This document shows, in pieces, positions 1,615 through 29,749 of a stretch of DNA of 33,089 nucleotides. Position 1 is the stretch's first letter, and each line of letters opens with the position of its first letter. The translations under genes and the position numbers were made by a program. The DNA comes from a virus. The stretch lies in the IMG/VR virus record IMGVR_UViG_3300042154_000908, positions 1 to 33,089 of that record; one strand, written 5' to 3'. Below the pieces are notes generated by a model. That model was not told the DNA's origin, made no database searches, and saw nothing but the letters and a program-made list of their open reading frames with translations.

Positions 1615-1622
1615 ATATTTAT
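1615..1622 (+). promoter_or_regulatory. ATATTTAT motif, putative late promoter of portal gene
   Basis: Exact copy of the recurrent intergenic octamer, lying just after the terminase stop and 22 bases before the portal ATG. The function is inferred from recurrence and position only. Confidence 0.5.
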
Positions 1623-1644
1623 ACTCATACAAACAAAATAATTA

Positions 1645-3576
1645 ATGGCTGATACATCACTCTTTGGTAGGTTAAAACGATTATTCTCATCTGATGTTAT
1701 TATTAGAAACGTTGGTGGTGATCAACTAAAAGTAGTTGATACTGACCGAATACAATCGTTAGGTGCGTTGCAAACAAACGCATTAGTTGACCGCTTTACC
1801 AAAATATATACAACATCAGGCGCAGGAGTTTATAACCTTAACAACGTTTTAAACTACCAAACCTTACGTGTTCAATTATACACAGACTATGAAGCAATGG
1901 ATACAGACGCTATCGTAGCATCTGCGCTTGATATCATTGCTGACGAATGTACTTTAAAGAATGACTTCGGTGAAGTTATTCATATCAAATCATCAGACGA
2001 AAACGTACAGAAAATATTACGTAACTTGTTTTATGACGTGTTAAACATCGAGTTTAACTTATGGTCATGGACTAGAAACATGTGTAAGTACGGTGATTTT
2101 TATCTTAAATTAGAAATATCAGAAAAATTCGGCGTATATAACGTCATACCTTTCTCAGCATATGCAATTATACGAGAGGAGGGAGTAGACGTTAAAAACC
2201 CAACCTATGTGCGTTTTAAGTACGATCCTACATCGGTTGCTGGTACAACTATGGGATATGGAGTTATACCTCCAAATGCTATGTTAGGTGGAGCTGAAGG
2301 TATTTACTTTGAGAACTATGAAATGGCTCACTTCCGTCTATTAAGTGATGTTAACTTTTTACCATATGGCAGAAGTTACTTAGAACCAGGACGTAAAATA
2401 TTCAAACAATATGTTTTGATGGAAGATGCAATGTTGATTCATAGAATTGTTCGCGCTCCTGAAAAACGTGTTTTCTATGTTAACGTAGGTTCTATCCCAC
2501 CAAATGAAGTAGAAAACTACATGCAGAAGATGGTCAATAAGATGAAGAAAGTTCCTTATATTGATCCTCAAACTGGCCAATACAATCTTAAGTACAATAT
2601 GCAGAACACGATGGAGGATTTTTATATTCCTGTTCGTGGTAATGATAGTTCAACTCGTATTGATACTACTAAAGGATTAGAATATAATGGTATTGATGAC
2701 GTTGCTTACTTACGTGATAAGTTATTTGCTGCTCTTAAGATACCTAAAGCATTTATGGGTTACGAGAAAGATTTATCTGGTAAAGCAACACTTGCCGCTG
2801 AAGATATTCGTTTTGCTCGTACAGTTGAACGTATTCAACGTATTGTACTATCAGAATTATACAAAATCGCTATTGTACACTTATATGTTCAGGGATATGA
2901 AGGTGAGTCATTAACTAACTTTGAGTTAGACTTAACTACACCATCAATTATATATGATCAAGAACGTATGGCGTTACTCGCTCAAAAGGTTGACTTAGCA
3001 GGTAACATGATTGATAAAGAATTAATGCCAACTAGTTGGATTTATGAGCATTTATTCCACATGAGTGAAGAACAAATGGATGACTTACGTGATCAATTGG
3101 TTGAAGATAAGAAAACTAAATTCCGCCTAGACCAAATACAAACTGAGGGTAATGATCCATATGATTCTGGTCAAGCCTACGGTACACCATCACAATTGGC
3201 TACTGCTTACGGTACGGGTCGATATAATGCAAATAATGAAGTTCCTGTAGGATTTGATGAAACTAATCCAAACGAACCTAAACCATTACAAGGTAGACCA
3301 ACTGAACATCCATCATTTATTGGTACTCAAAAAGATCCATTAGGTAAAGATCGTTTAGGTAATAAGTTTATGAAGAGCAATGATGACCAAGAAGACGGTA
3401 CATTGCGCGCTAGCTACAAAGGCAACTCAGCATTAGCGATGGAGGCAAAAGCATCATCAACATTGGCTGGTCTTAAAGCAGCATTAGCAAACGCACCTAA
3501 AGCTAATCGCAAGATCACGTTATTTGAACAGAGCGATTTGTTAAACGAGGACAATATCCGTGAGCAACTTGATTAA
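1645..3576 (+). CDS. 20: Portal vertex protein (gp20-like)
   Basis: This forms the ring at the unique capsid vertex through which DNA enters and on which the neck is built. The family signature is clear across residues 20-500: an N-terminal YNLNNVLNYQTLR/LYTDYEAMDTDAIVASALDI region, the central RAPEKRVFYVNVGSIP stretch, a MEDFYIPVRG segment and GLEYNGIDDVAYLRDKLF. It is 643 residues against 524 for T4 gp20. The extra length is mostly a C-terminal tail from about residue 510 that is rich in Gly, Pro, Asn and charged residues and looks poorly ordered. The gene sits directly between terminase and the unknown block at 3611-6494. In T4 the sheath and tube genes lie between 17 and 20; here they do not. 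Confidence 0.97.
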   Translation: MADTSLFGRLKRLFSSDVIIRNVGGDQLKVVDTDRIQSLGALQTNALVDRFTKIYTTSGAGVYNLNNVLNYQTLRVQLYTDYEAMDTDAIVASALDIIADECTLKNDFGEVIHIKSSDENVQKILRNLFYDVLNIEFNLWSWTRNMCKYGDFYLKLEISEKFGVYNVIPFSAYAIIREEGVDVKNPTYVRFKYDPTSVAGTTMGYGVIPPNAMLGGAEGIYFENYEMAHFRLLSDVNFLPYGRSYLEPGRKIFKQYVLMEDAMLIHRIVRAPEKRVFYVNVGSIPPNEVENYMQKMVNKMKKVPYIDPQTGQYNLKYNMQNTMEDFYIPVRGNDSSTRIDTTKGLEYNGIDDVAYLRDKLFAALKIPKAFMGYEKDLSGKATLAAEDIRFARTVERIQRIVLSELYKIAIVHLYVQGYEGESLTNFELDLTTPSIIYDQERMALLAQKVDLAGNMIDKELMPTSWIYEHLFHMSEEQMDDLRDQLVEDKKTKFRLDQIQTEGNDPYDSGQAYGTPSQLATAYGTGRYNANNEVPVGFDETNPNEPKPLQGRPTEHPSFIGTQKDPLGKDRLGNKFMKSNDDQEDGTLRASYKGNSALAMEAKASSTLAGLKAALANAPKANRKITLFEQSDLLNEDNIREQLD

Positions 3577-3580
3577 TAAC

Positions 3581-3588
3581 ATATTTAT
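3581..3588 (+). promoter_or_regulatory. ATATTTAT motif, putative late promoter
   Basis: Exact octamer, continuing as CATATTTATAA, placed 4 bases after the portal stop and 22 bases before the ATG at 3611. This is the same spacing as in front of the portal gene. Confidence 0.5.
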
Positions 3589-3610
3589 AAGTAGTGCGCA
3601 TTAACTTTAT

Positions 3611-4468
3611 ATGAAAGCCAAACACAGCAAATTTAAAAATACAGGTATTTTATTTGAATTACTTGTCCGCCAGATCGCATCTGATGTGCTATCAGCCAAA
3701 GATTCATCGTCGGTTAAAATCATTAAGAAATTTTTCTCCAACAGCGAATTAGCCAAGGAGCATAAATTATATTATACTATTGCTTCAGCTGAAAAGTTGA
3801 GCGAGTCTAAAGCCGAGTCATTGATTAATACTGTACTTGATTTAAGTACTAAGTTGAATCGTGAGCAAATCAACAAAGATAAGTACAACTTGATCAAAGA
3901 GATCAAGAAGAACTACGATCTTGATGATTTCTTCAAGGCTAAGATCAATAATTACAAAGTATTAGCGTCTATCTCTACGTTAATTGAGTCTAAAAACAGC
4001 AAGGAATTTGATGATCCTAAAACAATTGTCACTAATAAGTTAACATTGTTGGAACATATCACAAAAATTCCATTGACTGAAGAAAAAATTCAAAGTGCTG
4101 TCATCAATGAGTTCACAAGAGCTGATAAAGATATTCGTATCTTGGCTTATAAATTACTTATTGAGAAATTTAATGACAAATATTCATATTTCAGTACTAC
4201 CCAAAAGAATGTGTTGAAAGAATTCATCAATAATATTTCTAATACAGAACAACTACGTGAGTTTGTTAACAAGAATGTTAATGGTTTAAAAGCTGAGTTA
4301 CAAGCATTCATTCCTAAACTAGATGACAAAACTACTCAGATCAAACTAAACGAGATATTGAATTTAATGGTTGGTGTTCCTAAAGGTAAAACTGTAAAAG
4401 ATGAGCATATGATCTCATTATTACAATACCATGAGTTACTAGATGAATTAAAAAAAGTATCTAAGTAA
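3611..4468 (+). CDS. Unknown phage protein, possible prohead-core component
   Basis: A 285-residue protein that I do not recognise with confidence. It begins MKAKHSKFKNTGILFELLVRQ and is Lys/Glu/Leu/Ile-rich, apparently almost entirely alpha-helical, with no membrane segment, signal peptide or enzyme motif. It follows the portal gene and starts a four-gene run (3611, 4469, 4996, 5215) with gaps of 0-11 bases. In T4 the slot between portal and protease holds the small prohead-core genes 67 and 68, so a role inside the assembling head is a reasonable positional guess. It is much longer than T4 gp67 or gp68 and I see no sequence match to either. Confidence 0.8.
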   Translation: MKAKHSKFKNTGILFELLVRQIASDVLSAKDSSSVKIIKKFFSNSELAKEHKLYYTIASAEKLSESKAESLINTVLDLSTKLNREQINKDKYNLIKEIKKNYDLDDFFKAKINNYKVLASISTLIESKNSKEFDDPKTIVTNKLTLLEHITKIPLTEEKIQSAVINEFTRADKDIRILAYKLLIEKFNDKYSYFSTTQKNVLKEFINNISNTEQLREFVNKNVNGLKAELQAFIPKLDDKTTQIKLNEILNLMVGVPKGKTVKDEHMISLLQYHELLDELKKVSK

Positions 4469-4984
4469 ATGGACATTAGAAAATATATTAAGGAGTATAC
4501 TACACAACTAGTAAAAGAAATGTCTGGTACTGGTACAGGTGCTGGTTTTGCTCCTGGTGTTTCCAATCCACAAATCGCTACTGCTAAAGCATTTAAAAAA
4601 ATCAAGAAAGAAGACGCTCCACAACTTGCTGGAGGTAAAGTAAAAAATAATTACGCTGTATCTCATTTTGGTTTCACAAATGCTCCTTCTGTTCCTAACC
4701 GTAAGTCTAAAGCAATAGACTATAAGCAATTATGGAAAGAATATAAAATAAACAAACCAGGAGCTGATAATTATATAGCATTTAAACTTAGACCTAATAC
4801 ATTAGAAAAATTTGAAAAACTAATGGCTACTGACACTAAGTTTTATGATGAAGTATATGATATTATTTTCTTTACTGGAAAGGATGATGATGAAAACTAC
4901 AATGTATGGGATGGAGGAAATGAAAGTAGATACGCTTACATACAAGGTGCGTTTGATGAAAAAGATAGAAACCCTGAATATTAA
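4469..4984 (+). CDS. Unknown phage protein, 171 residues
   Basis: The ATG follows the previous stop codon with no gap (TAA-ATG), so the two genes are probably translationally coupled. The N-terminus is amphipathic (MDIRKYIKEYTTQLVKEM), followed by a flexible Gly/Thr/Pro segment at about residues 20-35. The C-terminal half is soluble and acidic (FTGKDDDENYNVWDGGNESRY at about 135-155). No catalytic motif or membrane segment is visible. The position between portal and protease suggests a head-assembly role, but nothing in the sequence shows it directly. Confidence 0.78.
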   Translation: MDIRKYIKEYTTQLVKEMSGTGTGAGFAPGVSNPQIATAKAFKKIKKEDAPQLAGGKVKNNYAVSHFGFTNAPSVPNRKSKAIDYKQLWKEYKINKPGADNYIAFKLRPNTLEKFEKLMATDTKFYDEVYDIIFFTGKDDDENYNVWDGGNESRYAYIQGAFDEKDRNPEY

Positions 4985-4995
4985 ATAAAATAACA

Positions 4996-5208
4996 ATGGA
5001 TAATTTTGACTATAAAAAATTCGTATTTAACGCTAAGGCTAACATAAACGAAAATATGGAAGTTAAAGAGGCTGTTAACCCTGAACTTGATTCTAAAGTA
5101 TTAGGATATGTAAAGGATTTAGCTAAGTTTTATGAGTATAGTGATCAAGATGCTGTATTCGCTATTATCCAATCACTTGTAAGACAAGGATTATATAACC
5201 CAAAATAA
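4996..5208 (+). CDS. Unknown small protein, 70 residues
   Basis: A small soluble protein with a charged N-terminus (MDNFDYKKFVFNAK) and a predicted helical C-terminal half ending SLVRQGLYNPK. It starts 11 bases after the previous gene and ends 6 bases before the next, so it reads as part of the same operon. Coding is supported by this tight packing and an ordinary composition. I recognise no domain. Confidence 0.7.
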   Translation: MDNFDYKKFVFNAKANINENMEVKEAVNPELDSKVLGYVKDLAKFYEYSDQDAVFAIIQSLVRQGLYNPK

Positions 5209-5214
5209 AAAATA

Positions 5215-5343
5215 ATGGCTAAAGCAAAATCAGCAAGCAATAGTACCAAAGTTTCATTCGGTAAACGCAAAATAGGATCAGCACAAAAATCATTTAACAA
5301 ACACACACCACGCCCTAAAGCGTATCGTGGCCAAGGAAGATAA
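5215..5343 (+). CDS. Small basic protein, 42 residues
   Basis: Short reading frame starting MAKAKSASNSTKVSFGKRK and ending PRPKAYRGQGR. About a third of its residues are Lys, Arg or His and there is only one aromatic residue besides two Phe. It fills the space between the 70-residue gene (6-base gap) and the next gene exactly, and its stop codon overlaps the first base of the following ATATTTAT motif. From memory, short basic proteins ending in a similar YRGQGR tail occur in other T4-like phages, but I cannot verify this here. The charge suggests nucleic-acid or acidic-scaffold binding; that is inference. Confidence 0.72.
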   Translation: MAKAKSASNSTKVSFGKRKIGSAQKSFNKHTPRPKAYRGQGR

Positions 5344-5350
5344 TATTTAT
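5343..5350 (+). promoter_or_regulatory. ATATTTAT motif, putative late promoter with almost no leader
   Basis: Exact octamer whose first base is the last base of the upstream TAA stop. It ends only 4 bases before the ATG at 5355. If it acts as a -10 element, transcription would begin at or within a few bases of the start codon. Confidence 0.5.
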
Positions 5351-5354
5351 CAGT

Positions 5355-6494
5355 ATGACAACAATAGATTTATACAAAAAGCATAAAGCAGGCGAGGTAA
5401 GTCGCGAGAAATTTTTATACGAGGTTAGACGTGACGCTAAGTTACCTTGGATTATTAGTGTAACATCATATGATGATGCTATTAAAATCCTTAAGAACAA
5501 GGGTATTATCCGTGAGTCTGTAGAAGAAATTAAAGTAGATACTACTGAAGAAGCACCTATGGAAGAAATGTCTTATGAAGATACTTCTGTAGATGAAAAA
5601 TTGGAACCAGTAAGTGATGAAGATATTGAAATATATGTTGACGAATTGGGTACAAGTGTTGATAAAAAAATGTTAGGTAAATTCTTCGCTGAAAATAACT
5701 TATATGAAAGAGAAGAAGACGCTTTATTGAAACATTATGGTTTCTATAATGACGTTGACGATGTAATGGATGTTTTAAGATTCAAAGACAGATATAAGTC
5801 TCGTAGAAGAGAATTTGCTGAGTCTGATTCATTACAAGAAGGTAAGAAAAAACAACCAAAAGCGCTTGACGCGGATCATGCTAATCCATACCAATACCGT
5901 TTAGGTATTCAATATGAATTAGAATGTTCTGATGACTATACTGATGAGGGTTTAGAAAAAGCTAAAGCTAAAACATTAAGAAATTTAGCTAAAGATTCTA
6001 ACTACTACACAACGTTAAATGCTAAAAAATCACCTTACACTTTTAAAGAAACTGAAACTAACAAACCAGGAATGCAAGCAACTGCTGATGGAATGTTGAA
6101 AAAAGGTGCTGGTAAGAATGCTAAAGCAAATGTTAAAGATAATTTAGGTAAGAAAGAGCAAGGAACTGCATCTCCAAAAGGTGTTAAGGAAATGACTATG
6201 ACACCTAAGAAAGCTAAAGGAATTAGCAAAGTAATGGATATGCCTGGTAAACCAAAAGTGGTTAAAGAAGGTGTTTCATTCAAAGATTTTTTTTTAACTG
6301 AGAACGAAGAAGTAGAAGTAGATAAGAAAACTAAAAATATTGCTAAAATCAAAGCTAAGTTAAAGAAAGAAACTAAACTTATTAAGTCTAAAACTACAGG
6401 AACAACTATTGATGTAGTACCAGATAATCAAGTATCAGACATACAAGCTAGTTTAGCTAAAAAAGGAGTTCAAACAACAACAACAGACGTATAA
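5355..6494 (+). CDS. Unknown charged protein, possible head-internal component
   Basis: A 379-residue protein of no family I recognise. Residues 1-50 look folded (LYKKHKAGEVSREKF, then LPWIISVTSYDDAIKIL). Residues 50-100 are acidic. Residues 110-160 contain a second probable helical domain. From about 165 it is strongly Lys-rich and low-complexity (GKKKQPKAL, MLKKGAGKNAKANVK), ending in a Thr-rich tail. Alternating acidic and basic unstructured segments next to a prohead protease are typical of scaffold or internal head proteins, but this is positional inference. The protease gene follows after 10 bases, probably on the same transcript. Confidence 0.8.
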   Translation: MTTIDLYKKHKAGEVSREKFLYEVRRDAKLPWIISVTSYDDAIKILKNKGIIRESVEEIKVDTTEEAPMEEMSYEDTSVDEKLEPVSDEDIEIYVDELGTSVDKKMLGKFFAENNLYEREEDALLKHYGFYNDVDDVMDVLRFKDRYKSRRREFAESDSLQEGKKKQPKALDADHANPYQYRLGIQYELECSDDYTDEGLEKAKAKTLRNLAKDSNYYTTLNAKKSPYTFKETETNKPGMQATADGMLKKGAGKNAKANVKDNLGKKEQGTASPKGVKEMTMTPKKAKGISKVMDMPGKPKVVKEGVSFKDFFLTENEEVEVDKKTKNIAKIKAKLKKETKLIKSKTTGTTIDVVPDNQVSDIQASLAKKGVQTTTTDV

Positions 6495-6504
6495 TATACT
6501 AATC

Positions 6505-7149: not shown

Positions 7150-7260
7150 GACTTTATCGCTTAGACATATCTACATATATTTATTGATACCCATATAGGA
7201 TCTCTAATATCCTATCGTTTTAATTACATACCCTTATATTGTCTCAAATTAAATAGACAA
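7135..7260 (+). other. Structured intergenic leader between protease and scaffold genes
   Basis: Three inverted repeats sit in this stretch. ATAAAG+CCT (7135-7143) pairs with AGG+CTTTAT (7148-7157, one bulged A) and spans the protease stop codon. ATAGGAT (7195-7201) pairs with ATCCTAT (7209-7215). TTGTCT (7239-7244) pairs with AGACAA (7255-7260). None is followed by a T-run, so they are not classic terminators. The 131-base gap is the longest in the window and precedes the highly expressed scaffold-capsid pair, so mRNA processing or stability control is plausible. Confidence 0.45.
7177..7184 (+). promoter_or_regulatory. ATATTTAT motif, putative late promoter of scaffold-capsid unit
   Basis: Exact octamer within ACATATATTTATT, 96 bases before the scaffold ATG at 7281. 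The long leader holds two small inverted repeats. Confidence 0.48.
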
Positions 7261-7280
7261 TCCCCGACAAAAATTTTATT

Positions 7281-8426: not shown

Positions 8427-8446
8427 ATTTAAATTTTCATTAACAA

Positions 8447-10099: not shown

Positions 10100-10125
10100 T
10101 ATTTAACCGTCTAGTTTAGATACCT

Positions 10126-10158
10126 GAGACCCGAGCCTGTAAGCTCGGGTCTCTTTTT
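10126..10158 (+). terminator. Intrinsic terminator after the capsid gene
   Basis: A perfect 11-bp stem, GAGACCCGAGC (10126-10136) with GCTCGGGTCTC (10143-10153), closes a 6-base loop and is followed by TTTTT. It is the most GC-rich element nearby. An ATATTTAT motif begins 3 bases after the T-run. Confidence 0.95.
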
Positions 10159-10161
10159 GTC

Positions 10162-10169
10162 ATATTTAT
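10162..10169 (+). promoter_or_regulatory. ATATTTAT motif directly after terminator
   Basis: Exact octamer (TCATATTTATAT) 3 bases after the capsid terminator and 5 bases before the ATG at 10175. A terminator immediately followed by this motif is the best positional argument that it is a promoter. Confidence 0.58.
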
Positions 10170-10174
10170 ATTAT

Positions 10175-10438: not shown

Positions 10439-10442
10439 CAAT

Positions 10443-11081
10443 ATGCCAGATTTACCAATATCCGGACTACCATCCCTAGTCACTCCAACCTCAACAGATG
10501 TATTTGCTATTGTTAATGGTGGCATAACTAAAAAAACAACTGTACAAGCAGTTGGTAATACTGTATTTAACCAAATATCAAATTCAGTTATATTACCTAG
10601 TCAAACTGGATCTTTTGGTGTGACTAATTATTATGGTTCATTTTTACATACAGCTTCAATGCTTAACCCAGCACCAGGAACTGCTAATACAATGTCTTTA
10701 AGTACAACAGATATTTCTCAAGGTGTTATTATTTCTGGTTCTATTAATGATAAAATTAAGTTTACTAATGCAGGAATTTATGATATTCAATTTTCAGCTC
10801 AATTAGACAAAACATCAGCTGGATCTGATTTTATTATTTATATTTGGATAAAACAAAATAACAGTGATGTTCCTATTAGTAATACAGCTGTGACTGTATT
10901 AGGAGGTAGTAATGCTAAAACTGTAGCTGCTTGGAACTGGTTTGTTAATGTTAATGCTAATGATTTTATTCAATTAATGTGGGCATCTGCTGCTTCTGAT
11001 GCTCGAATACAATATAATGCCTCACCTACTTATGGGCCAGCCGTACCGTCATTAATAGTGACAGCTAATAGAGTAGGTTAA
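10443..11081 (+). CDS. Structural protein with probable C1q/TNF-like beta-sandwich
   Basis: A 212-residue protein with two parts. Residues 1-38 carry a common phage virion N-terminal pattern (ISGLPSLVTPTSTDVFAIVNGGITKKTTV), seen from memory at the start of many fibre or decoration proteins. Residues 80-210 look like a C1q/TNF-type jelly roll: IKFTNAGIYDIQFSAQLDK, then FIIYIWIKQNNSDV, then the W-rich WNWFVNVNANDFIQLMW, ending VPSLIVTANRVG. Such folds usually form trimers on the virion surface. It may be a head decoration or a short fibre; the position next to the capsid gene slightly favours the head. The stop overlaps the next ATATTTAT motif by one base. Confidence 0.72.
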   Translation: MPDLPISGLPSLVTPTSTDVFAIVNGGITKKTTVQAVGNTVFNQISNSVILPSQTGSFGVTNYYGSFLHTASMLNPAPGTANTMSLSTTDISQGVIISGSINDKIKFTNAGIYDIQFSAQLDKTSAGSDFIIYIWIKQNNSDVPISNTAVTVLGGSNAKTVAAWNWFVNVNANDFIQLMWASAASDARIQYNASPTYGPAVPSLIVTANRVG

Positions 11082-11088
11082 TATTTAT
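11081..11088 (+). promoter_or_regulatory. ATATTTAT motif, putative late promoter of small membrane protein
   Basis: Exact octamer starting on the last base of the upstream stop codon, 55 bases before the ATG at 11144. Confidence 0.5.
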
Positions 11089-11143
11089 CCATGGTACCAA
11101 CTAATGCGCGTTTTGCATTTTTTCACTCAAAACCCATTAAAAC

Positions 11144-11251
11144 ATGGAGCAATTAGCATTCATTCTACATTGGCATTTTTTGTTAGGTGTAGTAGTTGGT
11201 GTAGTGGTAGGCCCACACATCAAAAATTTAGTTTCTAAGTTTAAAAAATAA
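11144..11251 (+). CDS. Small single-pass membrane protein, 35 residues
   Basis: A short frame, MEQLAFILHWHFLLGVVVGV at its start, giving one membrane helix (about residues 4-23) with a Gly/Val zipper-like pattern (GVVVGVVVG), then a basic tail ending NLVSKFKK. The short acidic N-terminus and basic C-terminus suggest the C-terminus is cytoplasmic. It is bracketed by an ATATTTAT motif and a strong terminator, so it appears to be its own transcription unit. That makes coding likely despite the length. It could be a small holin-like or envelope-associated protein, but nothing identifies which. Confidence 0.7.
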   Translation: MEQLAFILHWHFLLGVVVGVVVGPHIKNLVSKFKK

Positions 11252-11256: not shown

Positions 11257-11283
11257 AAGCCCTACAGAAATGTAGGGTTTTTT
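11257..11283 (+). terminator. Intrinsic terminator with GAAA tetraloop
   Basis: CCCTACA (11260-11266) pairs perfectly with TGTAGGG (11271-11277) around a GAAA loop, flanked by an A-run before and TTTTTT after (11278-11283). It ends the 35-residue gene's unit, and an ATATTTAT motif follows after 4 bases. Confidence 0.95.
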
Positions 11284-11287: not shown

Positions 11288-11295
11288 ATATTTAT
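11288..11295 (+). promoter_or_regulatory. ATATTTAT motif, putative late promoter of phoH
   Basis: Exact octamer (TCATATTTATAT) 4 bases after a terminator T-run and 19 bases before the phoH ATG. Together with the motif at 10162 this is the second terminator-motif pair. Confidence 0.58.
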
Positions 11296-11992: not shown

Positions 11993-12000
11993 ATATTTAT
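11993..12000 (+). promoter_or_regulatory. ATATTTAT motif, putative late promoter of neck operon
   Basis: Exact octamer (GTATATTTATAT) 9 bases after the phoH stop and 17 bases before the gp13-like ATG. Confidence 0.5.
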
Positions 12001-15354: not shown

Positions 15355-15362
15355 ATATTTAT
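15355..15362 (+). promoter_or_regulatory. ATATTTAT motif, putative late promoter
   Basis: Exact octamer (TCATATTTATCA) 4 bases after the previous stop and 30 bases before the ATG at 15393. Confidence 0.5.
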
Positions 15363-16785: not shown

Positions 16786-16793
16786 ATATTTAT
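16786..16793 (+). promoter_or_regulatory. ATATTTAT motif, putative late promoter of giant fibre
   Basis: Exact octamer (TCATATTTATAA) 2 bases after the previous stop and 105 bases before the ATG at 16899. Confidence 0.5.
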
Positions 16794-20966: not shown

Positions 20967-20967
20967 C

Positions 20968-20975
20968 ATATTTAT
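20968..20975 (+). promoter_or_regulatory. ATATTTAT motif, putative late promoter
   Basis: Exact octamer (ACATATTTATTT) one base after the upstream stop codon and 26 bases before the ATG at 21002. Confidence 0.5.
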
Positions 20976-21001
20976 TTAAGACATACAAATTATCTGAAGG
21001 C

Positions 21002-22843
21002 ATGCCCAACAATATTTTAATAACCCCAGGTAAGTCATCTATACAATTTAGCGGAAGCTTAGTAAACAGTATAGAATTACTTACAGACGCTACAGGAAGT
21101 GTGACGTTTTATGGCTACGGTACAGGATCTAAAGCTATCGTAACCATCTACGATACATCGTCTGGTTATCTTGGTATTAACCAAGTAAAACCTTCAGCAT
21201 CACTACATGTTAACTCACCTAGTGGTGGGTTTGCTGCTTTGTTTACAACAGCAACAGCTACTGCATTTGCTATTAGTTCTACAACTAATAATATAATGAT
21301 GGGTAAGAGTGTAGATGATGGTATAAACGCATTACAAATTGTAGGTAGTGTATCAGCATCAGCATTCACTGGTTCGTTTTCAGGAGGTGTAACAGGTTCA
21401 TTTACTGGTAGTGTTTTAGCTACTGGTTCGTTTACAGGTTCATTCGCTGGTCAAGTAGTTAGTGCTAACGCTCGTTTATCTGGTTCATTAACAGGATCAT
21501 TTACAGGTACTAGTACAGGTTCATTTACAGGTATATCATTTGCTACTGGTTCATTAACAGGGTCATTCACAGGAGCTGTTAACGCTACTGGCTCAGTAAG
21601 CGGCGCCTTTGCAGGTGCTGTTACTAGTGCTACAGCCAACATGACAGGATCATTTAGTGGTTCTCATATTGGAACTGCTTTATTGACTGGATCATTTAGT
21701 GGTTCATTTAAAGGTGATGGTGCTAATTTAACAGGTGTTGTTACAACATTAGCTGTTACAGGTGCTTTATCATCTAGTGGTTTAATGACTAGTGGTACTA
21801 TTGATCTTAAAACACAATCTTTAACATTAAGTGGCTCGTTAAGCAAAGGTGTATATGTGACATTTGACAATACAACTCGTATTGCATCATTTGACCTTGC
21901 TCAAAGCATTTCTCAATCTGCAGATGTAATATTCAACTCTGTAACTTCTAGTTTCACAGGAGCATTTACAGGTACTTTATTTGGTACTGCATCTCAAGCA
22001 TTAACTTCATCCTACGCATTAAACGCAGGATTAGGATACAATACAACTCAATTTACTCAAACTACACCTACAGCATCTTGGATTATACCTCACACTTTGA
22101 GGACACAATCTCCAATGGTACAAGTGTATGATTTAAGTTATAATCAAATTATTCCTAACGCTATTACTGGTGTTGATAATGGTACTGTTAAGGTTGAATT
22201 CTTAGTACCTACATCAGGATATGCTATGTTATCTAATGGTGGTGGTTTTAGTCCAACAGGATCTCAAGCATTCTTATCTCAATCATCAGCAGCTGTTACT
22301 TGGAGTTTTGATCACAACTTAAACACTAAGTATCCTGTATTCCAAATATACGGTGACAATGATGAAGTATTAATACCAGCAGGTATTAAAGCATTATCTC
22401 CTAGTGGTAGTGAAATTTATTTTGCAGTACCAACAACAGGTGTTGCCGTAGCAGAATTTAGTGGTATAAGTGGCAGTTTCGTCTCAACATATGGAGATGG
22501 AATGATATCAGGTTCACTTACAATTATAAATAATTTAATCGTATCAGGTAGCATTACTGAATTATCAACTCGTACTGCAAAATCAGATATTACGCCTTTA
22601 TCATACAGCACAGCCGAATTTATGAAACTTGCTCCTGTGTCGTACACATTGAACAATACAGGAACTAAAGAAATTGGTTTCATAGCTGAGGAGGTACACG
22701 ATATTTATTCCGAGATATCACGTGATGGACTAAGTATATCTTATACTAAGTTTGCACCGGTTTTGGTTAAAGTGATTCAGGAACAACAACAACGCATTGA
22801 GCGTTTGGAACAAATGTTAAAAAACAATAACAATATAAGCTAA
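21002..22843 (+). CDS. Second tail fibre with C-terminal S74-type chaperone
   Basis: A 613-residue protein. Residues 1-118 form a distinct N-terminal domain (ILITPGKSSIQFSGSLVNSI, LGINQVKPSASLHVN). Residues 121-246 are a dense run of TGSFTGSF-type repeats. Residues 266-315 are paralogous to the fibre at 15393 (LSGSLSKGVYVTFDN, DLAQSISQSADVIF). Two TW...H.L beta modules follow (about 350-412 and 424-487). The S74-type domain starts at S522 (STRTAKSDITPL) with GFIAEEVHDIYSEI, and ends in a coiled coil (EQQQRIERLEQML). Self-cleavage before S522 is expected for this family. The kelch gene at 22845 starts one base after the stop, so the two are probably made together. Confidence 0.88.
   Translation: MPNNILITPGKSSIQFSGSLVNSIELLTDATGSVTFYGYGTGSKAIVTIYDTSSGYLGINQVKPSASLHVNSPSGGFAALFTTATATAFAISSTTNNIMMGKSVDDGINALQIVGSVSASAFTGSFSGGVTGSFTGSVLATGSFTGSFAGQVVSANARLSGSLTGSFTGTSTGSFTGISFATGSLTGSFTGAVNATGSVSGAFAGAVTSATANMTGSFSGSHIGTALLTGSFSGSFKGDGANLTGVVTTLAVTGALSSSGLMTSGTIDLKTQSLTLSGSLSKGVYVTFDNTTRIASFDLAQSISQSADVIFNSVTSSFTGAFTGTLFGTASQALTSSYALNAGLGYNTTQFTQTTPTASWIIPHTLRTQSPMVQVYDLSYNQIIPNAITGVDNGTVKVEFLVPTSGYAMLSNGGGFSPTGSQAFLSQSSAAVTWSFDHNLNTKYPVFQIYGDNDEVLIPAGIKALSPSGSEIYFAVPTTGVAVAEFSGISGSFVSTYGDGMISGSLTIINNLIVSGSITELSTRTAKSDITPLSYSTAEFMKLAPVSYTLNNTGTKEIGFIAEEVHDIYSEISRDGLSISYTKFAPVLVKVIQEQQQRIERLEQMLKNNNNIS
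21362..21709 (+). repeat. Run of GSFTGSF-coding repeats
   Basis: About a dozen near-identical short units reading ACTGGTTC(A/G)TT(T/A)ACAGG(T/A)TCATT or close variants, encoding TGSFTGSF-type residues 121-236. The same unit occurs as single or double copies in the genes at 14904, 15393 and 16899, offering homology for recombination between fibre genes. Confidence 0.85.
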
Positions 22844-22844
22844 T

Positions 22845-25800
22845 ATGGCAATATTACAGTCAACAACAATCAGTGGTAGTCTAACAATGAGCGGCAGCAC
22901 AGCGCTAACTGGGAATGTCACTTTAAATTACTTTTCATCTTCTGTATCAGGAGCTATTGCCCCAATAACTGCTGTTTGGACAGCGGGTGGTGCTTTAAGT
23001 ACAGCTAGATATGGTATGGGTAGCGCAGGTACTGCTACAGCCGCTTTAGCATTTGGAGGTTATTCAAGTGTAGCTCCTGGTCCATTTGCATGTACAGAAG
23101 CATACAACGGTTCATCTTGGTCTGGAGGTGGAGCAATGATTACAGGAAGAGTAGGTTTAGGTGGAGCAGGAACAGCAAATGCTGCTTTAGCATTTGGTGG
23201 ATATAAGTCAAATTTCCCAAGTGCCATGCTAACTTGTGCTGAAAAATATAATGGCTCTGCTTGGTCATCAACAGGAGCAATGATCACAGCTAGATGTGGA
23301 ATCGCTGGATTAGGAACCCAAAACGCCGCTTTAGCAGTAGGAGGATGTTTTTCACCTACTCAAGTTAGATGTACAGAAATATTTAATGGTACCGCTTGGT
23401 CTGCTGGTGGAGCTATAATCACTGCTAGACAATATGGAGCTGGAGCAGGTACAACAAACGCAGGTTTATTTGCTGGTGGTCAAGGTGCTTCTTTCACTGT
23501 CCTAACATGTACAGAACTTTATAATGGATCTACTTGGTCTTCAACTGGTGCGTTAAGTACTGCTAGAGAAGTAGCAGGAGCTGGTACTCAAACAGCAGCT
23601 ATTGTTTTTGGTGGTACCCCTGCAACCGCTACTTGTACAGAATTATTTAATGGTACTACTTGGTCTACTTCTGTAGCTATGATTACAGGTAGAAGATGTG
23701 GAAATGGTGCCGGTACTCAAGCATCAGCTTTAGCATTTGGTGGTAAATGTGTTGGAGCCGCTCCTTCTACAGCAACTACTGAAGTATTCACTGCAGGTAC
23801 ACCAGGTACACCTGGTACTACAGTATTTACTTGTATCAAGTCACTTGACTATTCAACAGTTACAGGAAATATTTCAATATTAAGTGGTAGTTTAGCTTTA
23901 GCCCCATTTGCTACTGGTAGCGCCCCAGTTACAGGTTCAGCAGGACAAATATTTTTTGATAGCACAAACACAACTTTAAGAATAAGTGGTGTTGGTAGTG
24001 GTGGTGGTGTATGGTCAAGTGGAGGTGCTATGATTACTGCTATTAATAGTCAAACTAGTGCGGGTACAACAAATGCTGCTTTATCATTTGGTGGTTTTGC
24101 TCCTACTGTAGTATCATGCACAGAAAGATATAATGGATCAACTTGGTCCACTACTGGAGGTTTAATTACAGCTAGAGGATTTTCATTTGGAGGTGTAGGT
24201 ACTCAAAACGCTGCTTTATCTGCAGGCGGTGGTAACCCAGGAGCTGCAGCTAATACTGAAAAATATAATGGAATTGCATGGTCAGCAACTGGTAACTTAA
24301 ACTGTGCTCGTGCTTATTTAGCTTCTACTGGTGTTCAAAATGCCGCTTTAGCAATGGGTGCTTATATTGCTCCTACAGGAAGAACATGTGTTGAATCTTT
24401 TAATAGTGTAGCTTGGACTGTAGGTGGAGCTTTAATTACTGGATTACATAGTTCAGCAGCCGCTGGTACTCAAAATGCAGCTTTAACAGTAGGTGGTGAT
24501 CCTACTTGTACTCAAGCATACAATGGTATAGCTTGGACTATAGGTGGTAACATGATTACTGGTAGAAATCGTTTAGCTGCTGGAGGTACTCAAAATGTTG
24601 CTATAGCAATGGGAGGTAATAATGGAGCTATAGTTTCATGTGTTGAAGAATATAATGGTACTACTTGGTCTACAAATAATGCTATGATTACTGCTCGTGA
24701 AAAATTAGGTGGAACAGGTACTCAAGCCGCTGCTTTAGCATTTGGTGGTCTCACACCAGCAGCAGCCTCATCTACTGAAGCATATAACACAACAAACATC
24801 CAAACATGTTATATCCCAACAATTGAATTTGCAACTCAAGATAAGGCACAACAACAATTGCCTGATATTGAAGGAAAAATATTTTATGACACCAACTCAA
24901 AACAATTTAAAGTAACTGGTCAGTCATATGGTGCTGGTACTTGGAGCGTCGTAACGGCTTTAATCTCAGCTAGACAAGGTATTTTTGGTGCAGGTACTTC
25001 AACCGCGGCTTTAGCAGCTGGTGGTGATTCTCCAGCAGGAGCTAAATTAACATGTACAGAAATATATAATGGTTCTACTTGGGCAGCGGGTGGGGCTATA
25101 ATTACTGCTAGATTTTTAGGAGGGGCTGCGGGTACTACAAATGCTGGATTGATATTTGGTGGAGCTACAGGACCAGGAGCTGTAGTAGCATGCACTGAAA
25201 AATATAATGGTTCTACTTGGTCTTCCACAGGTACTTTAGGATTTGCTAGATATATTTTAACTGGAACCGGCACTCAAAATTCAGCTTTAGCTGTTGGAGG
25301 ATATTCTCCCTCTGCTCCAGCTACAGCAAGAACATGCACTGAAAAATTCAATGGTTCAACATGGGCCACATCTACTGGTACACCTCAAGTTACAGAAGGT
25401 GGTACTCTTGTAGGTACACAAAACGCAGCTTTATATATAAGTATAAACACTCCAACTAATACTAAATGTGCTATTAAGTTTGATGGTACAACTTGGTACG
25501 CCGCAACGTCTACTAACTGTAATCACCGTGTAGCTGCAGGATTTGGCACACAAAACAACGCTGTTATAGCAGCAGGACAAAACCCAGCAATAAGCAATAC
25601 AACTGAAGAATTTAATGGTGTATCTTGGAATATAGGAGGAAATATAACTACTGCTAGATCATTTACAGCAGGCGCAGGAACACAAACATCAGGATTAGCA
25701 TTTGGTGGACAAGCTCCATCAGTTGTATCATGTACAGAACTTTACACAATCCCAACTATCACAACAACATGTACTCTTACATCAATAGGTAACGTGACAG

Positions 25801-26768
25801 CAAATGAAATTAAACGTATTTGTGAACCAGGACAATTATTCTATAATAGAGATACTAACCAATTAGCAGTAACAATTAATGATGGTAATGGTGTTTGGAG
25901 TAATACAACTAGTTTAACAACAGTTAGAGCAGAAGCTGCAGGAACTGGTACACAAAATGCCGCTATACTTATGGGGGGTTATAGCTCCCCTACTGGTATT
26001 GTTGGGTGTACAGAATTATTTAATGGTTATTCTTGGACATCCGGAGCTGTTTTAATTACAGGAAGGGCTAGACTAGCCGCTTCTGGTGTTCAAAACGCAA
26101 CTTTAGGATTTGGAGGTGCTACTCCTTCCGGCGCTACAAACGTATCATGTGTAGAAGCATTTAATGGTGTGACTTGGGCAGCAGGCACTGCTTTAATCAC
26201 AGCTAGAAGATTCTTATTTGGAGCAGGTTCTCAAAATGCTGCTTTAGCATCTGGAGGATATGGCCCTGGTAATCTTTCTTGTACTGAAAAATATAATGGA
26301 ACAGCATGGGCTTCTAGTGGGGCTTTATCAGCTGCTAGATATCGCGGAGGTGGAAGTGGTACTCAAAATGCCGCTATTGTGACTGGTGGTGCTCCTGGAG
26401 CGGGAGCGTGTACAGAATTATTTAATGGTTCTACTTGGTTAACAGGACCTGCTTTAATAACAGGTAGATTTGATAACTCTAACGGCGGACTTCAAAACTC
26501 AGCTGTGACATTTGGTGGAGCTACACCAACAAACATAGCATGCACAGAAGAATATAATGGAACATCATGGTCATCCGGAGGTACTATGGGTACAGCTAGA
26601 AAAAGTGTTGGCCAAAATATTGGTACTCAGGGTAGATCATTAGCTGCAGGAGGATATGCTCCTGGCGCTGTAACTTGTGTAGAAAAATATAATCATACAG
26701 GCGTTACTTACCAACCAGTATATTTCAACTTAGCTGAATTACAACGTTTTTCTACTAAATCTATTTAA
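22845..26768 (+). CDS. Giant kelch-like protein: four predicted six-bladed propellers
   Basis: A 1307-residue repetitive protein. The basic unit is about 45-50 residues: GTQNAALAFGG, a variable loop, CTE.YNG..W, then GGA(L/M)ITAR. This has the hydrophobic-run-GG, Tyr, Trp spacing of kelch repeats. I count six Trp blades in each of four blocks (about 45-316, 389-648, 699-968, 1017-1283). Blocks are separated by linkers carrying GQ(I/L)F(F/Y) or GKIFYD and ending in a G.(G/T)(V/T)W strand that opens the next block. The N-terminus (SGSLTMSGSTALTGNV) resembles fibre shafts; the C-terminus is HTGVTYQPVYFNLAELQRFS. No catalytic motif, membrane segment or S74 domain is seen. It is probably a surface-exposed virion adhesin or decoration; a carbohydrate-binding role is a guess. 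Confidence 0.82.
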   Translation: MAILQSTTISGSLTMSGSTALTGNVTLNYFSSSVSGAIAPITAVWTAGGALSTARYGMGSAGTATAALAFGGYSSVAPGPFACTEAYNGSSWSGGGAMITGRVGLGGAGTANAALAFGGYKSNFPSAMLTCAEKYNGSAWSSTGAMITARCGIAGLGTQNAALAVGGCFSPTQVRCTEIFNGTAWSAGGAIITARQYGAGAGTTNAGLFAGGQGASFTVLTCTELYNGSTWSSTGALSTAREVAGAGTQTAAIVFGGTPATATCTELFNGTTWSTSVAMITGRRCGNGAGTQASALAFGGKCVGAAPSTATTEVFTAGTPGTPGTTVFTCIKSLDYSTVTGNISILSGSLALAPFATGSAPVTGSAGQIFFDSTNTTLRISGVGSGGGVWSSGGAMITAINSQTSAGTTNAALSFGGFAPTVVSCTERYNGSTWSTTGGLITARGFSFGGVGTQNAALSAGGGNPGAAANTEKYNGIAWSATGNLNCARAYLASTGVQNAALAMGAYIAPTGRTCVESFNSVAWTVGGALITGLHSSAAAGTQNAALTVGGDPTCTQAYNGIAWTIGGNMITGRNRLAAGGTQNVAIAMGGNNGAIVSCVEEYNGTTWSTNNAMITAREKLGGTGTQAAALAFGGLTPAAASSTEAYNTTNIQTCYIPTIEFATQDKAQQQLPDIEGKIFYDTNSKQFKVTGQSYGAGTWSVVTALISARQGIFGAGTSTAALAAGGDSPAGAKLTCTEIYNGSTWAAGGAIITARFLGGAAGTTNAGLIFGGATGPGAVVACTEKYNGSTWSSTGTLGFARYILTGTGTQNSALAVGGYSPSAPATARTCTEKFNGSTWATSTGTPQVTEGGTLVGTQNAALYISINTPTNTKCAIKFDGTTWYAATSTNCNHRVAAGFGTQNNAVIAAGQNPAISNTTEEFNGVSWNIGGNITTARSFTAGAGTQTSGLAFGGQAPSVVSCTELYTIPTITTTCTLTSIGNVTANEIKRICEPGQLFYNRDTNQLAVTINDGNGVWSNTTSLTTVRAEAAGTGTQNAAILMGGYSSPTGIVGCTELFNGYSWTSGAVLITGRARLAASGVQNATLGFGGATPSGATNVSCVEAFNGVTWAAGTALITARRFLFGAGSQNAALASGGYGPGNLSCTEKYNGTAWASSGALSAARYRGGGSGTQNAAIVTGGAPGAGACTELFNGSTWLTGPALITGRFDNSNGGLQNSAVTFGGATPTNIACTEEYNGTSWSSGGTMGTARKSVGQNIGTQGRSLAAGGYAPGAVTCVEKYNHTGVTYQPVYFNLAELQRFSTKSI
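22977..26693 (+). repeat. 24 kelch-type blades in four groups of six
   Basis: Blade units of about 140 bp, diverged from each other. Groups correspond to DNA 22977-23792, 24009-24788, 24939-25748 and 25893-26693. In nearly every blade a Cys precedes the TE.YNG motif. Counting was by eye from the Trp positions. Confidence 0.75.
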
Positions 26769-26775
26769 TATTTAT
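26768..26775 (+). promoter_or_regulatory. ATATTTAT motif, putative late promoter of second kelch gene
   Basis: Exact octamer starting on the last base of the upstream stop codon, 31 bases before the ATG at 26807. Confidence 0.5.
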
Positions 26776-26806
26776 TTGAAATACAATATACAAAACACAA
26801 TAACGC

Positions 26807-29734
26807 ATGTTAATTCATAACGCAGTCATAACAGGTTCAGTAATATTAAGTAACACGCCCTTAACATACGCCAGTTACACATCAGGATCTTCACCTGTGA
26901 CATCATCAGTTGGTCAAGCTTATTTCGATATAGCTAGTGAAGATTTACAAGTAACAGGTTTAGGTACAGGAGGTGGTGTATGGGCTAGTGGAGGTGCGTT
27001 AATTACAGCAAGAGTAGCTATAGCGGGTACTGGTACACAAAACGCAGCTTTATCATTTGGTGGTTATGTTACTCCAACCCATACTTCATGCGTTGAAAGA
27101 TATAATGGCACTGTTTGGTCAGCTGCTACTGCTTTAATAAATGGTAGACATGGCTCAGCAGCCGCTGGTACTCAAAACGCTGGCTTAGCAATTGCTGGTT
27201 ACCAATCAGTAAATACACAAATAACATGTACTGAAAAATTTAATGGTACGGCTTGGGCTGCTACAGGAGGTGTAATTAATGCTAGAGGTATTCTATCAGG
27301 CGCTGGTACTCAAAATGCAGCATTAGCATTTGGTGGTGCTACTTCACCATATACAGAAGGATTCAACGGTATATCTTGGTCAAGTTGTAGTGGTTTAATT
27401 ACAGCTGTAAGAGCAGGCGCTGGTGGGGGTACTCAAAACGCCGCTATCGCTACTGGTGGTAATTCTCCATCTGCTATTGTAGCATGTACAGAATTATCTA
27501 ATGGTGTTTCTTGGGCGGCTGGCCCATCTATGATTAATGCTAAAAGAGCCTCTAGCTTAGCTGGTACTCAAAATATCGCTTTATCATTTGGTGGTTATGG
27601 CGACTCAGGATTAGTAGGAACAGAAGAATATAATGGTACATCTTGGACAGTAGGTGGCAGTATGATTACAAATAGATGTAGATTAGGAGGTTCAGGTACT
27701 CAGTCACAAGGTTTAGCATTTGGTGGATCTTCATCTCCAGGAGTTTCAAACACATGCACAGAAGCTTACACAACAACAAACATAAAAACCTGTAAGATAG
27801 CCACTATTGAAACAGTAACTAATCAACCTGCGGAACAACAACTTGATCCAACAGCAGGTAAAATATATTATGACAACAACTCAGGCCAATTTAAGGCTGT
27901 GGGTGTGTCTTATGGTGCTGGTACTTGGAGTGCTAGTGGTGCAATGATTAATGCTGTAGCTCGTAATGCTGGATTCGGTACTCAAACATCTGCTCTGAGT
28001 GCTGGAGGGTATACACCTACAGTAGTATCTTGTGTAGAAGCATTTAACGGCTCAACTTGGTCTTCTTGTACTGGTTTAATTACAGCTAGAAGATTAACAA
28101 ATGGAGTAGGATCTACTTCTGCTGGATTAGTCATAGGCGGTTTCAACTCTAGTACTTGTGGTTGTACAGAAAAATGGAATGGATCAACCTGGTCTACTAC
28201 AGGAGCTTTAATCAACGCTAGATACGGTTCTATGGTAGCCGGTACACAAAATGCTGCTGTTTCCGCTGGTGGTAGTGGTGGTGGCTTATCTACTACAGAA
28301 AAATTTAATGGTTCAACTTGGGCCGCAGGAAATAATATTAACAATCCAAGACAACTAGGTACTGGTGTTGGTACTCAAAATGCTGCTTTAGGATTTGGTG
28401 GTACATGTGGACCGAATGTATGTAGTTGTACAGAAGCATATAATGGAACTACTTGGTATGCTGCAGCTGCTCTTCCTCAACCAACCAACTACCCAATAGG
28501 ATCAGGAACACAAAACTCAGCTTTATCTATGGGAGGGTATGCTCCAGCTCAACCTACTGTTACAAATAGGTCTTATGAATACAATGGTGTAGCTTGGTCA
28601 ACAGGAGGTAGTTTAATTACATCTAGAGCAGTAGGTGGTGGTGCTGGTTCTCAAACAGCCGCTGTTGCTTTTGGAGGTCAGACTCCGACTAATGTGACTT
28701 GTACTGAACTTTACAACGTCCCAACCACATATACTACATGCACACTTACCTCAATTGGTAATGTGACCGCAAACGAAATCAAACGTATATGTGAACCAGG
28801 ACAAATATTCTATAACCGTGATACTAACCAATTTAATGTCACAATTAATGGTGGTAATGGTGTTTGGAATAACTCAGCTAACTTAAACACTGCTAGATTT
28901 AACTTAGCAGGAGCTGGTACTCAAAATAGTGCTTTAGCATTTGGTGGAGTAGTGAATGTAGATTGTGCTTGTTCAGAAGCATTTAATGGTTATTCTTGGA
29001 CTGTATCAAGTCCATTAATTACTGCTAGAAGAGCTTTAGCAGGAGGTGGCCAACAAAACGCCGCTTGGGGTGCTGGCGGATTAGCAGCTCCAGCTTATGT
29101 AACATGTACTGAATTGTATAATGGATCAGCTTGGGCAGCGTCTGGAGCTTTAAGTACTGCTAGATACCAACTTTATGGTATAGGTACTCAAAACGCGGCA
29201 GTAGTAGCTGGAGGATATAGTACAGCTGCTTCAGTAAACGCTTGTGTTGAAGTATTTAATGGTACGTCTTGGTCAGCGGGTTGTGCTTTAGGAGCTGCTC
29301 GATACAGAGGTGGTTCAGGAGCTGGTACACAAAACTCTGGCTTAATTGCAGGAGGTACTTTCCCAGCATTATTAAGTTCTTCTTGTAAATATAATGGCTC
29401 ATCTTGGTCATCAGGTGGTAACTTAAACACAGCTAGATCTCAAGGTAATAACGCTGGTACTCAAAATGCCGCTTTATACTCTGGAGGAACAACACCAACT
29501 ATTGCCACTTGTACTGAAGAATATAATGGAACAGCTTGGTCTGTTACTTCTCCTTTACTTACAGCAACTTCAAATTTTGGAGTATCTGGTACTCAATCAA
29601 GAGCTGCAATGTTTGGAGGAAATGCTCCTACAACATCGGCTGCTACACAAAAGTATAATCACACAGGTATCACATACCAACCACTATACTTTAACTTAGA
29701 TGAATTACAAAAATACTCATCAGTTTCTAAATAA
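26807..29734 (+). CDS. Giant kelch-like protein: three predicted six-bladed propellers
   Basis: A 975-residue paralogue of the preceding gene. Three blocks of six blades lie at about residues 58-322, 372-638 and 686-952. The N-terminal segment (TSGSSPVTSSVGQAYFDIAS to GGGVW) corresponds to the linker before the second block of the 1307-residue protein. Its two linkers match linkers 2 and 3 of that protein, one almost perfectly (CTLTSIGNVTANEIKRICEP in both). The C-terminal tail HTGITYQPLYFNLDELQKYS also matches. It therefore equals the larger protein minus its first propeller. Likely role as for its neighbour: a surface virion component, exact function unknown. Confidence 0.82.
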   Translation: MLIHNAVITGSVILSNTPLTYASYTSGSSPVTSSVGQAYFDIASEDLQVTGLGTGGGVWASGGALITARVAIAGTGTQNAALSFGGYVTPTHTSCVERYNGTVWSAATALINGRHGSAAAGTQNAGLAIAGYQSVNTQITCTEKFNGTAWAATGGVINARGILSGAGTQNAALAFGGATSPYTEGFNGISWSSCSGLITAVRAGAGGGTQNAAIATGGNSPSAIVACTELSNGVSWAAGPSMINAKRASSLAGTQNIALSFGGYGDSGLVGTEEYNGTSWTVGGSMITNRCRLGGSGTQSQGLAFGGSSSPGVSNTCTEAYTTTNIKTCKIATIETVTNQPAEQQLDPTAGKIYYDNNSGQFKAVGVSYGAGTWSASGAMINAVARNAGFGTQTSALSAGGYTPTVVSCVEAFNGSTWSSCTGLITARRLTNGVGSTSAGLVIGGFNSSTCGCTEKWNGSTWSTTGALINARYGSMVAGTQNAAVSAGGSGGGLSTTEKFNGSTWAAGNNINNPRQLGTGVGTQNAALGFGGTCGPNVCSCTEAYNGTTWYAAAALPQPTNYPIGSGTQNSALSMGGYAPAQPTVTNRSYEYNGVAWSTGGSLITSRAVGGGAGSQTAAVAFGGQTPTNVTCTELYNVPTTYTTCTLTSIGNVTANEIKRICEPGQIFYNRDTNQFNVTINGGNGVWNNSANLNTARFNLAGAGTQNSALAFGGVVNVDCACSEAFNGYSWTVSSPLITARRALAGGGQQNAAWGAGGLAAPAYVTCTELYNGSAWAASGALSTARYQLYGIGTQNAAVVAGGYSTAASVNACVEVFNGTSWSAGCALGAARYRGGSGAGTQNSGLIAGGTFPALLSSSCKYNGSSWSSGGNLNTARSQGNNAGTQNAALYSGGTTPTIATCTEEYNGTAWSVTSPLLTATSNFGVSGTQSRAAMFGGNAPTTSAATQKYNHTGITYQPLYFNLDELQKYSSVSK
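26978..29662 (+). repeat. 18 kelch-type blades in three groups of six
   Basis: Same blade unit as in the preceding gene. Groups correspond to DNA 26978-27772, 27920-28720 and 28862-29662. Codon choices differ from the neighbouring gene even where the protein is identical, as in the conserved linker, so the duplication is not recent. Confidence 0.75.
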
Positions 29735-29741
29735 TAATAAC

Positions 29742-29749
29742 ATATTTAT
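29742..29749 (+). promoter_or_regulatory. ATATTTAT motif, putative late promoter
   Basis: Exact octamer (ACATATTTATAA) 7 bases after the kelch gene stop and 22 bases before the ATG at 29772. It is the last clear copy, so it may drive everything from here to the window end. A one-base variant, ATATTTAA, lies at 32639-32646. Confidence 0.5.

Follow-up and report, generated by a model that had tools for sequence, protein, structure and literature searches.

An intergenic octamer as a probable late-type promoter element of Far-T4-like phages, with a candidate gp55-like sigma factor

Introduction

Activation of late transcription in bacteriophage T4 requires the gp45 clamp. The late promoters that serve the structural genes of this phage have an 8-bp -10-like element, TATAAATA, and no -35 box, and are read by the region-2 phage sigma factor gp55, which flips adenines A-12, A-9 and A-8 of the element and stacks Y97 on A-12 (PMC7892883). 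A remark on phage Aeh1 in the 2010 review of T4 late transcription would place TATAAATA at -13 to -6; in silico variants of the element are known, such as a/gC at -13/-12 in Aeh1, and the review asks why nature shows no fused late sigma (PMC2988020). In the Far-T4 clade, of which the Rhodothermus phage RM378 is named as a relative with T4-like morphology, the core transcription-regulation genes of T4 were reported as undetected (PMC4360716). We have analysed a viral record of 33,089 nucleotides (IMG/VR record IMGVR_UViG_3300042154_000908, positions 1 to 33,089; the whole stretch is called the window), probably a fragment of a genome, in which the octamer ATATTTAT recurs between genes. Comparative evidence makes it very probable that this octamer is a late-type promoter element.

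Results

The octamer marks gene junctions in the window and in its relatives

PHROG profiles name terminase, portal, head protease, major head protein, PhoH, head-tail adaptor, virion structural and tail-fibre-like proteins in the window, and because of these names we take it to be a T4-like head and tail module. ATATTTAT occurs in it 14 times, always on the + strand, against 5.24 copies expected on both strands together (standard deviation 2.37), a count reached by none of 100 shuffled sequences. By our own gene table, with 843 nt non-coding, 13 copies lie at gene junctions, where dinucleotide-shuffled junctions hold a mean of 0.35 and at most 4 (1000 shuffles); the copy at 10162 is included on the reading that the next gene begins at ATG 10175, as a start at TTG 10157 would put it inside that gene. 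At 5343, 11081 and 26768 the octamer shares its first A with the TAA stop codon of the preceding gene. An earlier sequence-only reading of this DNA had listed 14 coordinates, 13 of them at junctions, on one strand, and all proved exact on recount. It also remarked that the octamer is missing inside tight gene pairs; we find a copy at 12 of the 14 junctions with a gap of at least 20 nt and at 1 of the 15 tighter ones (5343). A further remark, that most copies extend to (T/A)CATATTTAT(A/T), does not hold: of the 13 junction copies, 6 have this form.

For comparison we used the best 80 loci from a capsid-protein scan of viral contigs (1.257 Mb, 54 kb of it non-coding), in which genes were called mechanically, longest open reading frames (ORFs) first, and intergenic counts vary slightly. 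Between genes the octamer is present there 375 times forward and 29 times reverse, and within genes 71 times forward and 39 times reverse. When 8-mers are ranked by intergenic enrichment ATATTTAT comes first, about 115-fold over genes and in 77 of the 80 loci, and among 7-mers TATTTAT comes first, 51-fold (80 loci). Its frequency is thus not equal inside genes, and the proposal of the sequence-only reading that it is a new late-type promoter gains comparative support, with ‘late’ resting on gene content.

The same junctions are reused across diverged genomes. Orthologous sites are found in 37 relatives for the copy before the portal gene (1615..1622, ATG 1645), in 55 for the copy before gene 3611 (3581..3588), in 39 for that before gene 5355 (5343..5350), in 44 for that before gene 7281 (7177..7184), in 30 for that before the PhoH gene 11315 (11288..11295), and, as 27 sites, in 25 relatives for that before the head-tail adaptor gene 12018 (11993..12000).

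The nearest isolate is Flavobacterium phage vB_FspM_immuto_2-6A (immuto), with 57% identity in the major capsid protein, followed by Microcystis phage Mel-JY01, LR756508 (484 kb) and RM378; capsid similarity, rather than a tree, suggests that the lineage of the window lies within the Far-T4 clade. In immuto the octamer occurs 31 times forward and 4 times reverse, the intergenic copies among these numbering 22 and 1 (21 forward in a second gene calling), and Mel-JY01 has 20 forward and 7 reverse intergenic copies, including ones in the late-gene gaps that follow the terminase and capsid genes and in the gap separating tail sheath from tail tube. Since Mel-JY01, whose record gives a cyanobacterial host, shares it, the octamer is not tied to a host phylum and follows the phage lineage. 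RM378 has a variant, TTATTTAA, in 7 intergenic and 2 coding copies within 30 kb. No octamer excess was seen in T4 (11:13) or in two cyanophages (3:9 and 2:6), counted by record strand irrespective of gene strand. The reversed pattern is unusable as a control, because reading ATATTTAT backwards gives TATTTATA, which is this same element offset by one position.

A positioned purine suggests the transcription start

Sites too close to a locus end were omitted, so that distance counts use 369 of the 375 forward intergenic sites and the logo 372, of which 282 were kept after removal of flanks more than 80% identical. In this set, with the octamer's first A numbered 0, the core TATTTAT is frequently followed by A (position 8, 67%), and position 12 is A or G in 91% and C in 1% of sites. 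The purine peak keeps its height (91%) when only the 232 sites whose ATG lies 10 nt or more away are counted, and in the window position 12 is a purine at 12 of the 13 junction copies (an A before the portal gene). Transcription may therefore start at or next to this purine. The Flavobacterium psychrophilum sigma-A box, at -12 to -5 (PMC9723704), lies as far from its start as the octamer would from this purine.

Upstream of the octamer no column exceeds 0.26 bit, which agrees with the earlier remark that there is no shared -35 box. A G/T signal at -17/-16 was considered as a -35 box and set aside, its top words being T-runs and AGG/GGA; we attribute it to terminator tracts and to the ends of genes, though there may be a weak upstream element. 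The triplet TTG occurs at -26 to -19 of 36 of the 282 sites; the control windows gave 24 and 17. A terminator-like hairpin with a T run lies upstream of 67 of the 369 octamers and of 28 of 741 octamer-free gene starts, a control unmatched for gap length. In the window, sequence-predicted intrinsic terminators on the + strand end 3 nt before the octamer at 10162 (10126..10158, after the capsid gene) and 4 nt before that at 11288 (11260..11283), spacings visible also to the sequence-only reading.

Start codons lie chiefly 12–23 nt downstream of the octamer, with an overall range of 4 to more than 100 nt. At 34 of the 369 sites the ATG follows after exactly 4 nt, so that its A is position 12, and 30 of these precede matches of gene 5355, which in the window has this spacing itself; the class is essentially one conserved gene. 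Of the 39 orthologues of gene 5355, 35 were recognised by direct match to the window gene, with a spacing of 4 in 30 and of 5 in 5. Because the A of the ATG coincides with the putative start, the mRNA of gene 5355 is predicted to be leaderless, beginning at its ATG. Leaderless mRNAs make up 5.5% of those mapped in F. psychrophilum (PMC9723704).

Gene 7281, located between the head protease and capsid genes, is the opposite case, with 96 nt between octamer and ATG in the window (leader 7185..7280, + strand) and about 90–109 nt in its orthologues. Fold z scores of this leader average -2.5 in 44 sequences, 28 of them at -2 or below (the window's own is -1.31), and one hairpin common to the relatives has compensatory changes at every one of its 7 stem pairs across 31 sequences (for example in the leader at L058:8610-8706). 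At gathering scores no Rfam family matched the window, this leader included. A structured RNA that starts directly after the octamer is in keeping with transcription from it.

Immuto has a second, two-box promoter class

Unsupervised expectation maximization (EM) was run on gene gaps, taking 78–100 and 113–160 kb of immuto as chosen late regions and, for the other phages, 0–60 and 155–190 kb of Mel-JY01, 30 kb of RM378, 100 kb of LR756508 and 39 kb of T4. The T4 stretch served as positive control and returned TTATAAATAt, i.e. TATAAATA. The motifs found were aaATATTTAT in the window, gaTATTTATA in the late regions of immuto, AaATATTTAT in those of Mel-JY01 and TTATTTAAna, i.e. TTATTTAA, in RM378.

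The first 78 kb of immuto yielded a different motif, TTCnTATATT, and sequence comparison indicates that the early region of this phage carries a promoter class of its own, with two boxes. Of 32 early-type sites, 30 have TTG at the -35 place, as do 6 of 21 of the late type; the T before the core belongs to the early-class search pattern and for that reason was not used in this contrast. Exact early-type intergenic sites fall in 16–78 kb in 21 of 25 cases, and 14 of the 21 late-type intergenic sites lie in the two virion-gene regions.

We also observed that the early-type form, GTTG-N16-TTCnTATATTTAg.TAt, is regular in immuto (L081-L084), mostly at 16–78 kb of the record, and that TTCnTATATT has 25 forward and 0 reverse intergenic copies in immuto and at least 4 forward copies in 14 of 80 sigma-gene loci (L092-L171). 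Early- and late-type elements overlap in immuto at about 40254, 130562 and 149754, before groES/EL, PhoH and a gene annotated as baseplate hub, and are perhaps promoters active in both phases.

A candidate sigma factor is found in relatives

The sequence-only reading had suggested a search for a gp55-like sigma, and a candidate can be named, outside the 33-kb fragment, in the family of immuto gp118. A T4 gp55 profile weakly matched one immuto gene (E 0.008), and a general sigma profile (E 0.005) matched the orthologue of gp118 that lies among the same neighbouring genes in another contig. Immuto gp118 is annotated as hypothetical and has at least 80 homologues among viral contigs in each scan. 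In a tblastn search of a phage collection, orthologues appeared only in immuto (4 records), LR756508 (40% identity) and Mel-JY01, which as a cyanobacterial phage thus has both the octamer and the gp118-family protein.

A profile (A3) built from 43 of 80 homologues that passed an identity filter matched 9 of 10 records, namely all nine large Far-T4-side records, T4 being the one without a match. Two of the nine (G009 and G010) had been fetched with a gp118-family protein, and two more (immuto and G002) are the discovery records, which leaves G001, G003, G004, Mel-JY01 and RM378 as independent positives, the last weak (E 3.7e-4) with a diverged member of 264 amino acids. A further alignment (A5) took 24 sequences from a second 80, and 55 of the resulting 67 entered it. 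Compared with six gp55 proteins by hhalign, the family scored 79.7%, and 92.7% with a more diverse alignment, over about the first 120 residues of both; 40 column-shuffled gp55 alignments gave at most 1.5%. The alignment pairs the family's invariant Y95 with Y97 of T4 gp55.

For one homologue (L092) the predicted structure had a predicted local distance difference test score (pLDDT) of 78. In a structural second look, all 50 matches listed were, by their titles, sigma factors or sigma-like subunits in polymerase complexes, and among the top were T4 gp55 (7d7c_F; Z 9.9, 128 aligned, root-mean-square deviation (rmsd) 6.9) and SigB (Z 9.9, 90 aligned, rmsd 2.4), although values of Z <13 can be unspecific for helical models. 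The C-terminal domain of gp118, modelled alone (pLDDT 84), had no clear fold match, the best being an integrase-associated domain (Z 6.5), with sigma-E at Z 5.0 (80 aligned, rmsd 6.0); T4 gp33 was not among the matches listed for this domain, which excludes nothing. A search of solved-structure sequences with the sigma profile gave nothing useful. By profile and fold comparison, the gp118 family is a candidate distant member of the gp55 family of phage sigma factors.

G001 has a second, ECF-like sigma (L089:1498-2034, 2395-2876; phrog_1740, E 4e-19), beside which the ORFs look odd for a phage of that base composition. As a late sigma it was set aside, phrog_1740 being limited to G001 and RM378 among 10 records.

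The T4 late promoter as a point of comparison

TATTTATA is the reverse complement of TATAAATA and, read directly, is TATAAATA with two central bases changed, which refines the likeness to the T4 reverse complement seen by the sequence-only reading. Over TATTTATA/ATATTTAT, 6 of 8 positions are shared with T4, and the T4 core itself is not matched. Placed in the T4 register, TATTTATA retains both deep-pocket adenines, A-12 and A-8 (PMC7892883), and carries T at -10 and -9. Together with the alignment of Y95 on Y97, this suggests that the same gp55 pockets may read the new element. The 8-bp element also varies among other T4 relatives, as in Aeh1 and the cyanophages; here the changes fall at -10 and -9, in the Far-T4 branch, with a sigma barely detected by T4-based profiles. 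RM378, with its divergent gp118-family protein and the TTATTTAA variant, resembles the window lineage.

A T4-type gp45 clamp was recognised by phrog_223 and PF02916 in T4 (by phrog_223 also in two cyanophages) and in none of the nine Far-T4-side records, several of which may be fragments; for a DnaN-type clamp nothing above cut-off was found in 10 records, with one sub-threshold match in G001. Because DNA polymerases are annotated, family A genes in immuto and family B plus a clamp loader in Mel-JY01, some clamp, perhaps diverged, may exist in these phages. The late sigma seems to be common to different replication modules.

Other sites and features of the window

The remaining junction copies precede a small gene starting at ATG 10175 (10162..10169), a small ORF at 11104 (11081..11088), the virion structural gene 15393 (15355..15362), the long tail-fibre-like gene 16899, whose ATG is 105 nt away (16786..16793), the tail-fibre-like gene 21002 (20968..20975), gene 26807 (26768..26775) and gene 29772 (29742..29749). 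The copy at 22701..22708, inside gene 21002, is probably there by chance, since coding copies are rare in the relatives. Two adjacent very large proteins (1307 and 975 amino acids), encoded at 22845-29734, both match phrog_27227, to which no function is assigned. At 30836-32632 there are three consecutive 2OG-Fe(II) oxygenase-like genes, with a further frame running off the end of the window and no octamer before the cluster.

Discussion

The orientation of the octamer with the gene strand, its placement at late genes in the 80 relatives, the positioned purine and the upstream terminators, along with the separate early class of immuto and the gp55-like protein in nine records, argue that it is a late promoter element. 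The fuller statement, that this is a gp55-type late promoter system diverged to a new sequence and served by a gp55-like sigma, appears likely from the same comparisons. We regard it as a diverged version of a known type, not as a new type. For the terms used, we found no description of ATATTTAT as a promoter of these phages in the open literature searched.

Several observations weigh against this interpretation. Genome-wide 8-mer rankings put the octamer eighth in immuto, where TATTTATA is second, and outside the top 12 in Mel-JY01, where 31 of 51 forward copies are inside genes; 7 of the 21 intergenic copies of immuto lie outside the chosen late regions, and near the sigma gene forward copies outnumber reverse ones less strongly (72 to 32, and 105 to 25). 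Coding copies (n = 71) are also purine-rich at position 12 (79%), and the T4 register places the start two bases downstream of the purine peak. On the side of the protein, the sigma gene is not within the 33-kb fragment and is known from relatives; the Pfam family Sigma70_r2 matches weakly, reaching E 0.0061 at best and, with a limit of E 0.1, covering 21 of the 43 members, and Foldseek on the L092 model gave a best E of 0.48, so that the fold is backed by the structural second look only. Finally, the link between sigma and octamer is correlative, and LR756508, despite its 40% identical sigma, has no octamer enrichment in 100 of its 484 kb, in which EM yielded just a weak tTTtAA-like motif.

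The last two points leave room for the view that the late promoter octamer is recognised not by the gp118 family but by some other phage factor, whether an ECF-type sigma or a different protein, and the second, ECF-like sigma of G001, the nearest long relative, lends this some weight. We nevertheless think it unlikely. Phrog_1740 is present in 2 of 10 records, a weak third match being the gp118 orthologue of G002, and was not found in the whole genome of immuto, which has the octamer, whereas the gp118 family is present in 9 of the 10 records searched for it; the two sets of ten overlap partly, that for phrog_1740 having four fragments of 62–66 kb and excluding Mel-JY01.

In Bacteroidota, sigma-A promoters carry an upstream TTG box. 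The octamer could be a variant promoter of the primary sigma (TTG ... TAnnTTTG), read by the unmodified host holoenzyme, since its AT-rich -10 region lies at the putative distance at which Flavobacterium sigma-A has TAnnTTTG, at -12 to -5 (PMC9723704), and TTG is in slight excess upstream. This is very improbable. The T that such a promoter requires before the octamer is hardly conserved in the relatives (24% of sites; 7 of 21 in immuto), the terminal G and a fixed upstream box are absent from octamer sites, and a cyanobacterial phage shares the element; immuto, moreover, holds a distinct class with the TTG box, which its late class does not have. A translation or mRNA-level element, such as a ribosome or processing site, might be suspected from the numerous octamers 12–23 nt upstream of ATG, a view to which we give hardly any credence because the distance varies from 4 to more than 100 nt, the 7281 orthologues retain, between octamer and ATG, a long leader that includes a covarying hairpin, and the purine keeps its place relative to the octamer and not to the ATG. 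Chance in intergenic DNA that is AT-rich (73% A+T in the relatives), or a replication or packaging signal, is a negligible prospect, contradicted by the strand bias within that same DNA, by site conservation and by the shuffled junctions.

If the late-promoter interpretation holds, the octamer would be the -10-like element of Far-T4-like late promoters, at about -12 to -5, and transcription would begin with the purine 12 nt past its first base or with a neighbouring base, giving mostly short leaders of 8–19 nt, a structured leader of roughly 90–100 nt before one head gene and a leaderless transcript of gene 5355. Host RNA polymerase would be brought to the octamer by a phage sigma of ~230–260 residues (immuto gp118 and orthologues), whose N-terminal half would be a sigma-region-2 domain related to T4 gp55. 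The protein would differ from gp55 in being far diverged and in its extra helical C-terminal domain, to which no role is assigned. Because a T4-type clamp was not found in the nine Far-T4-side records, activation is probably unlike that of T4. A more specific idea, which we offer as tentative and would sooner doubt than adopt, is a TATTTAT-reading late sigma in a single protein that works without a T4-type clamp, with the gp55-like region 2 fused to a C-terminal domain that replaces gp33 (region 4), and with some leaderless late mRNAs. Not all such phages work alike, as another Microcystis phage, Ma-LMM01, is described in the portion of its study considered here as having no gp55 and host-type promoters.

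PMC4360716 describes Far-T4 phages as common in both fresh and sea water and leaves their transcription control open; for this a probable promoter and a candidate sigma can now be named. Immuto and its host, Flavobacterium sp. LMO8, are a cultured pair, which makes the question directly testable. A named promoter would allow late operons to be annotated across many contigs, and TATAAATA, TATTTATA and TTATTTAA would form a natural series for studying how a phage sigma and its promoter evolve together.

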